Part shown: positions 22,097 to 23,554 of the stretch, in pieces
Layout of the letters: every line of letters starts with the position of its first letter
Numbering within the stretch: position 1 is the first letter of the stretch
Assembly (NCBI RefSeq): GCF_018137965.1
Contig: NZ_CP073100.1
Coordinates: 1,550,001-1,614,000 of the forward strand
Direction of reading: 5' to 3'
From: Luteolibacter ambystomatis
GTDB taxonomy: Bacteria > Verrucomicrobiota > Verrucomicrobiia > Verrucomicrobiales > Akkermansiaceae
Length of the DNA: 64,000 nucleotides
Position numbers and translations under genes: made by a program
Notes under the pieces: generated by a model
Databases searched by the model: none
Seen by the model: only the letters and a program-made list of their open reading frames with translations
What the model was told of the DNA's origin: nothing

Positions 22097-23554
22097 ATGT
22101 CCCTCGACATCAAAGTTCCCGCCGCCGGCGAATCCATCACTTCCGCCAACGTCGCGCGCTGGCACAAGAAAAACGGCGAGACCGTCCACAAGGGCGAAGT
22201 CCTCGTCACACTTGAGACCGACAAGGTTTCCAATGAACTCGAAGCCGACGGCGACGGCACCCTTCAAATCCTCATCGGTGAAGGCGAGGAAGTATCCATC
22301 GGCACCGTGATCGGGCGCATCGAGGAAGGTGCCGCTGCTCCTGCCTCCGCTGCCGCGCCGGTGTCTGCTCCGGCTGCTCCTGCCAACACTCCGGCTCCCG
22401 CCGCTGCCGCGGCACCAGCTTCCGGTGGCACGGTCGAAATCAAGGTTCCCGCCGCCGGTGAATCCATCACCTCCGCCAATGTCGCCGCTTGGCGCAAGAA
22501 GGACGGCGATCAGGTCACCAAGGGTGAAGTGCTCGTCACGCTTGAGACCGACAAGGTTTCCAACGAACTGGAAGCGGAGGCTTCCGGCAAGCTGAAGATC
22601 CTGGTGCCGGAAGGCGAGGAAGTCGCCATCGGTGCCGTCATCGCCACCATCGAGGTAGGTGCCGCTCCGGCTCCTGCCGCCGCGACTCCCGCACCTGCAC
22701 CGGTTTCGACCCCAGCTCCTGCGCTCTCTTCCGTGGCAGCTCCGGCCCCGGCTCCAGGTGCCTCCACCGGTGTCACCGCTCCGCGTCTCAAGCCGGATCT
22801 TTCCGTCGTCAGCACCCCGGTCGAAAAGGCCCCCGCGCCGACCGCTTCCGAAGACGGCCGCACCACCCGCAGGAAGATGAGCATGCTGCGCCGCAAGATC
22901 GCGACGCACCTCGTCAATGCCCAGCAGACCGCTGCCATCCTCACCACCTTCAACGAGGTGGATATGAGCGCCATCATGGACCTCCGCAAGCAGGTGCAGG
23001 ATGACTTCATGAAGAAGCACGGTGTGAAGCTCGGCTTCATGTCCTTCTTCATCAAGGCCGTCACCCAGGCGCTCAAGGATGTGCCGCAGATCAACGGCCG
23101 CATCGAAGGCACCGACATCATCGAGAACCACTTCTACGACATCGGCGTCGCCATCGGCACCGAAAAGGGCCTCATCGTCCCGGTCATCCGCGATGCCGAC
23201 AAGAAGAGCTTCGCCGAGATCGAGCAGGACATCCTCGACTACGCCAAGAAGGGCAAGGAAGGGAAGATCGCCATCGAGGATCTCCAGGGCGGTGTGTTCA
23301 CCATCTCGAACGGCGGCACCTACGGTTCGCTGCTCTCCACGCCGATCCTCAACCCGCCGCAGAGCGGCATCCTCGGCATGCACACCATCCAGCAGCGCCC
23401 CGTCGCCGTGAATGGCCAGGTCGTCATCCGCCCGATGATGTATCTCGCCATGAGCTACGACCACCGCCTCGTCGATGGCAAGGAAGCCGTGACCTTCCTG
23501 ATCCGCATCAAGGAATGCCTCGAAACCCCGACCCGTCTCCTGCTGGAGATGTGA
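22097..23554 (+). CDS. sucB: 2-oxoglutarate dehydrogenase E2 (dihydrolipoyl succinyltransferase) with two lipoyl domains
   Basis: The 485-residue protein has two lipoyl domains (about 3-76 and 113-186, lipoyl-lysines Lys43 and Lys153 in ETDKVS) joined by Ala/Pro linkers. The catalytic domain starts near residue 258 and ends with the active site [13 protein letters not shown]. It transfers succinyl to CoA. Typical E2 chains have a 35-residue peripheral subunit-binding domain (GTG..GRI motif) before the catalytic domain. Here the linker (about 187-255) is only Ala/Pro-rich sequence plus [18 protein letters not shown] and shows no such motif. Most SucB proteins also have a single lipoyl domain. 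A strong terminator follows. Confidence 0.95.
22106..22245 (+). repeat. Direct repeat encoding lipoyl domain 1 (second copy 330 bp downstream)
   Basis: The DNA at about 22106-22245 is repeated at about 22436-22575 with mostly synonymous changes (long identical runs such as CTTGAGACCGACAAGGTTTC). This points to a recent internal duplication or ongoing gene conversion between the lipoyl domains of sucB. Confidence 0.8.

Follow-up and report, generated by a model that had tools for sequence, protein, structure and literature searches.

SucB of the window (the whole 64,000-nt stretch of Luteolibacter ambystomatis DNA that was analysed; coordinates below are window positions) was found to be an E2o without an E3-binding domain (PSBD). 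Judged from the trees described below, the domain was lost long ago in the lineage of the window, and its loss usually goes together with that of a second E3 paralogue, LpdO, whose gene mostly adjoins sucB (LpdO and LpdP are labels coined in this analysis for E3 paralogues).

SucB gene and protein

The gene sucB (22097..23554, + strand; ORF, domain search) encodes an E2o dihydrolipoyl succinyltransferase of 485 aa without an E3-binding domain; sucA (19286..22054, +; ORF, domain search), situated 42 nt upstream, encodes the 922-aa E1o, whose N-terminal segment (PF16078) is of the usual kind. SucB matched TIGR01347 with 416 bits (cut-off 378.65; profile positions 162–403) and PF00198 with 276.9 bits (aa 255–483), the DHR motif was present in the translation, and PF00364 (Biotin_lipoyl) matched two stretches of the N-terminal part; by these matches, the ORF is a genuine E2o. 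The order along the protein was as follows: lipoyl domain 1, aa 2–76 (22100..22324, +), with presumed lipoyl-lysine K43 in ETDK; inter-lipoyl A/P-rich linker, aa 77–111 (22325..22429, +), mostly of pLDDT < 50 (AlphaFold2); lipoyl domain 2, aa 112–186 (22430..22654, +), with presumed lipoyl-lysine K153; disordered A/P-rich linker, aa 187–254 (22655..22858, +), in the expected place of PSBD; catalytic domain PF00198 (22859..23545, +). The canonical bacterial three-domain E2 layout, with PSBD between the lipoyl and catalytic domains, was not found in SucB. The second linker contains a short motif conserved in the lineage, KPDLSVV, aa 232–238 (22790..22810, +), which precedes the catalytic domain by ~25 residues. 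On the opposite strand, an open frame of 1435 aa spans almost the whole of sucA–sucB (window 19292–23599, −); it is probably a by-product of codon usage and no gene.

Absence of the E3-binding domain in SucB

PF02817 (E3_binding) gave no match in SucB at E ≤ 10, and no helix was found in residues 187–255 of the AlphaFold2 model (built from 77 sequences of the lineage); pLDDT was 34–42 in blocks over residues 191–250, and the segments 189–217 and 219–247 were of pLDDT < 50 and free of helix. An earlier note on this DNA had claimed that SucB lacks the domain, and the claim was borne out at both points at which it could have fallen, the PF02817 search and the search for a cryptic three-helix fold; on the predicted disorder, a cryptic helical domain in the linker was rejected. 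Over the 94 PSBD-less E2o proteins (window included), the linker consisted of 24% A and 18% P, with I/L/M/F/W/Y at ~5%. Our own PSBD profile, built from 17 seeds all taken from the PSBD-bearing set A3, gave 27.8–72.5 bits with the 28 A3 rows (17 of them by construction), at least 27.8 bits with the 11 held-out A3 rows, 32.3 bits with the E2p control and 13.2 bits with the E2b control; the best of the 94 PSBD-less proteins, window included, reached 2.3 bits.

That SucB nevertheless contains a diverged PSBD overlooked by the profiles is scarcely credible, and this reading is already disfavoured. In its favour, a half-PSBD-like stretch in three genomes of one genus (L118–L120) scored at most 1.5 bits, so that decay can hide a domain, and the E2b control itself reached merely 13.2 bits; an A/P-rich linker so poor in I/L/M/F/W/Y and of such low pLDDT is, however, an unlikely helical domain, and the linker of the window has no half-PSBD-like stretch.

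Distribution of the E3-binding domain

The set of 122 E2o proteins comprised that of the window, 78 from loci on GTDB genome contigs and 43 from a 115-genome survey of the phylum. Of 80 contig loci, 78 were kept, two of them from Marinicaulis; the fragments L082 and L084 were dropped from all E2o counts. Among the 44 survey genomes with an E2o over the family cut-off (31 further genomes, matching TIGR01347 only below it, were left out), full PSBD was present in 26 and absent in 18; the absence extends beyond this SucB and is common to the clade, as the earlier note had proposed to check. Three of the 18 (G042, G054, G072; genus g11) keep, by eye, an apparent second half of PSBD. PF02817 matched 28/28 proteins of A3 and 0/17 of the PSBD-less survey set A4 (E ≤ 1); with the 77 E2o of set A2 it was not among the best 25 of 47 families (families listed for this set reach down to 2 members, so that no more than two members can have a match at E ≤ 1).

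The half-PSBD E2o proteins (L118:1510–2673, L119:1510–2676, L120:1513–2727) contain a stretch like RPGRITKEEALQLM and an E/K-rich linker, and LpdO adjoins sucB; they are possibly an intermediate of PSBD decay. Four genomes of genus g2, of the family of the window (G005, G051, G069, G105), gave no E2o at E ≤ 1e-60 and keep Lpd and PSBD-bearing proteins; they possibly run the TCA cycle without OGDH.

In a quick tree of E2o catalytic domains, built with no deeper outgroup, a branch with support 96 set three eukaryotic E2o rows apart from the rest, and between them and the PSBD-less rows lay PSBD-bearing bacteria; the loss of PSBD was therefore apparently independent of the mitochondrial loss. A careful 72-row tree needed three PSBD changes (starred branches force two) and four LpdO changes; a single clade of all PSBD-less rows outside family f4 was not rejected (p-AU 0.51).

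Lipoyl domains

The two lipoyl copies of SucB are spaced 330 nt, as the earlier note had stated; the near identity that it also claimed did not hold up, the copies being 73% identical in protein (75 aa) and 76% in DNA (270 nt; longest identical run, 23 nt), with dS = 0.66. In eleven relatives checked, dS was at least 0.80 in ten and saturated in one. Two lipoyl domains were found in 61 of the 94 PSBD-less E2o proteins (window included) and one in 33, among which the row of L067, cut upstream, may hide a second. In a lipoyl tree (146 domains, 75 columns; poorly resolved), the nearest row was the same-position copy of another species for 118/122 copies from two-domain proteins; of the remaining four, one was nearest its own partner and three were nearest single-domain proteins. 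Raw identities bear this out for close relatives: both window copies were closer to the same-position copy in 32/60 two-domain relatives; in the other 28, mostly more distant, the same-position rule fails for at least one window copy.

On these comparisons the duplication is clear, far above chance, old, and placed within the PSBD-less lineage. The recent duplication or gene conversion suggested by the earlier note is not supported, as the copies form old position-specific lineages, and is rejected as the main explanation on identities, lipoyl tree and dS; a short tract of past conversion between the copies may exist. Two Marinicaulis (Pseudomonadota) E2o proteins (L081:84–1565 and L088:6001–7479) also have two lipoyl domains; PSBD is kept in both and lpd adjoins.

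E3 paralogues

The Lpd tree (99 proteins; quick, with a long-branch warning; matches below the TIGR01350 cut-off left out) contained LpdO (27 rows, support 86), LpdP (65 rows, 99) and a third clade (6 rows, 100). LpdO was found in 23/26 PSBD-bearing genomes, 0/15 fully PSBD-less genomes and 3/3 half-PSBD genomes; LpdP was present in all 15 fully PSBD-less genomes, in which it is the one full-scoring E3 that remains. As read by eye from coordinates, sucB is followed by a co-directional Lpd gene in 21/26 PSBD-bearing genomes, not in four (G015, G093, G023, G080), and G086 was left out of the call because of a contig end; the same arrangement occurs in 3/18 PSBD-less genomes, all of them half-PSBD. 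In genus g2, Lpd lies <2 kb from sucB but is convergent in 8/10 E2o-bearing genomes.

A flank search of the 80 GTDB contig loci found lpd next to sucB in Marinicaulis alone, at both of its loci (of two Marinicaulis Lpd proteins placed in the tree, one fell inside LpdO and the other beside LpdP); the flanks of the 76 PSBD-less loci kept covered at least 1.6 kb downstream in 71 and at least 3 kb upstream in 67. Among 48 further PSBD-less genomes, with at most 25 first-look candidates scored per genome, exactly one Lpd over the cut-off was found in 42, two in none, and none in six (draft assemblies, one partial gene); since candidates were only partly scored in many genomes and some assemblies are incomplete, a second Lpd could be missed. 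From the 42 single-Lpd genomes, 28 Lpd proteins were read, and all 28 were LpdP. The Lpd of the window genome is a plain Pyr_redox_2 plus dimerisation protein; a fused lipoyl domain, considered as a candidate, was not found on it. The same genome has a second, weaker lipoamide-dehydrogenase-like protein at C1:4335362–4336723 (L008; 541 aa ORF; 356.9 bits with TIGR01350, below the cut-off).

The joint loss of PSBD and LpdO suggests a cognate E2o–E3 pair. Two PSBD-bearing genomes (G013, G102) have LpdO as their single Lpd; the E2o tree places G013 among PSBD-less relatives (a set of four rows, 96/87), yet it keeps PSBD and LpdO. The E2o proteins of family f16 (G015, G093, G023; L103, L106, L115) have PSBD, and the genomes have no LpdO; their one Lpd over the cut-off belongs to the third clade and lies beside E2p. 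PSBD thus does not need LpdO. Kinship-corrected pairs on supported branches numbered two (on average 1.8 concordant, 0.2 without difference, 0 discordant); with half-PSBD counted as present, 3/3 pairs were concordant. The sign test gave p 0.25 or more, significance being out of reach with two or three pairs. No more than two or three independent events underlie the pattern, and with so few the link between PSBD and LpdO could be a coincidence.

Proposed ways of using E3 without an E3-binding domain

It can fairly be inferred, as the earlier note did, that E3 docks elsewhere or that the complex is organised differently from that of E. coli. The E1o N-terminal segment binds the E2o core; E1o would still do so here through the conserved segment, and the loss of PSBD would then affect E3 only. 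In the reading that we put forward, and to which we give about an even chance, the OGDH complex would no longer hold an E3 of its own; the two lipoyl domains would swing on their A/P-rich, disordered linkers and bring their dihydrolipoyl groups to a shared LpdP, the binding of which would be weak or transient. The second lipoyl domain may make up in part for the reduced local concentration of E3, and it would not be required, as 33 of the 94 PSBD-less proteins have one domain. The loss of the second Lpd paralogue along with PSBD fits, as far as gene content can tell, a change in how E3 is reached.

Docking devices of other kinds were weighed against this reading. The linker motif KPDLSVV could dock E3 or E1 in place of PSBD; we regard this as unlikely. 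The pattern P[DS][LFMI][ASTKN] occurs in 45/94 PSBD-less linkers, shuffled linkers giving 2.8 on average (maximum 9, 300 rounds); in 36 of these 45 rows its P precedes the start of the catalytic domain by 24–25 residues. Hydrophobicity over the last 60 linker positions has its main peak at positions 21–22 before that start, and in PSBD-bearing E2o the motif follows PSBD in 1/28, at a different place. The pattern was, however, picked with the sequences already in view, and its count is inflated relative to the shuffles by common descent; after thinning, the motif remained in 11/33 rows, which rules it out as a universal replacement of PSBD. It was found in 0/10 genus-g2 linkers and 0/4 f4 linkers, one of two 0.9 Mb genomes has a match solely at another place, and the AlphaFold2 monomer showed no order at the motif. 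Alternatively, E1o may hold E3, as long proposed for mammalian OGDH, with E3 at the E1o N-terminal region (reviewed in PMC9681731, seen here in part). This mammalian precedent and the conservation of the E1o N-terminal segment speak for such docking; by eye, though, that segment is alike with or without PSBD, and no new or extra segment was seen in PSBD-bearing or PSBD-less relatives (full E1o from 33/38 loci tried, five without; start codons provisional), and we consider the proposal improbable.

A small probability, again, is given to OGDH borrowing its E3 from PDH, E2o and E2p (or E2b) co-assembling or docking so that the PSBD of E2p supplies E3. In the window genome PF02817 matched an E2p-like protein (55.7 bits) and an E2b-like protein (24.1 bits, cut-off 23.7), so that both carry PSBD; 28/28 genomes tested have one or more PF02817 matches above the cut-off, four PSBD-less ones (G066, G036, G057, G008) have Lpd adjoining E2p, and the portion consulted of PMC10581250 provides the precedent of an actinobacterial PDH–ODH complex. 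Against borrowing, E2o of the window differs from actinobacterial OdhA in retaining lipoyl domains of its own and a complete catalytic domain, and Lpd and E2p are ~140 kb apart in the window genome. A small adaptor recruiting E3, a functional equivalent of eukaryotic MRPS36/KGD4, has the eukaryotic precedent (PMC9974300, in the part consulted) on its side and is very unlikely: PF10937 (KGD4) gave no match in the window genome at E ≤ 10, a search in which two control genomes gave matches below the cut-off.

Comparison with known systems

E. coli SucB carries PSBD. With it and with the PSBD-bearing E2o of Verrucomicrobiota, SucB of the window shares the catalytic domain, the order sucA–sucB, a lipoyl domain and a TIGR01347 match over the cut-off; the PSBD-bearing E2o differ from it by PSBD (28/28 in A3) and, in the surveyed phylum, mostly by Lpd beside sucB.

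Actinobacterial OdhA, from the hybrid PDH–ODH complex, is described in the accessible part of PMC10581250 as an E1o–E2o fusion without lipoyl domains that uses those of E2p. It resembles the system of the window in being an OGDH without an E3-binding domain of its own; in the window, unlike the fusion, sucA and sucB are separate genes, and two lipoyl domains are retained in E2o. Neither a PSBD-less bacterial E2o outside Actinobacteria nor a SucB with two lipoyl domains was found in the literature, as covered by titles and abstract openings, with subscription papers and bioRxiv largely outside the coverage.

Eukaryotic E2o/DLST, which acts with MRPS36 (KGD4, E4), is built as here from lipoyl domain, A/P-rich linker and succinyltransferase core, has no PSBD, and has its E3 shared with other complexes. 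The window genome differs in having no MRPS36/KGD4 homologue and two lipoyl domains in SucB, and its E2o does not branch with the three eukaryotic E2o (support 96, quick tree). In PMC9974300, as far as its text was seen, PSBD is described as preserved across prokaryotic E2o and replaced by MRPS36 in eukaryotes, and its presence in the former and absence in the latter serve to argue for a fourth OGDH subunit, MRPS36. Measured against that text, the clade of the window is a clear exception, parallel to mitochondria, and the loss of PSBD is therefore not tied to MRPS36. Somewhat short of an even chance, in our estimate, is the joint claim that this bacterial clade took the mitochondrial route independently, dropping both PSBD and the dedicated E3, and uses a PSBD-independent E3 device as yet undescribed in bacteria, whether linker motif, borrowed PSBD of E2p or adaptor. 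The PSBD-less clade is a natural test of what OGDH needs in order to use E3 without PSBD.
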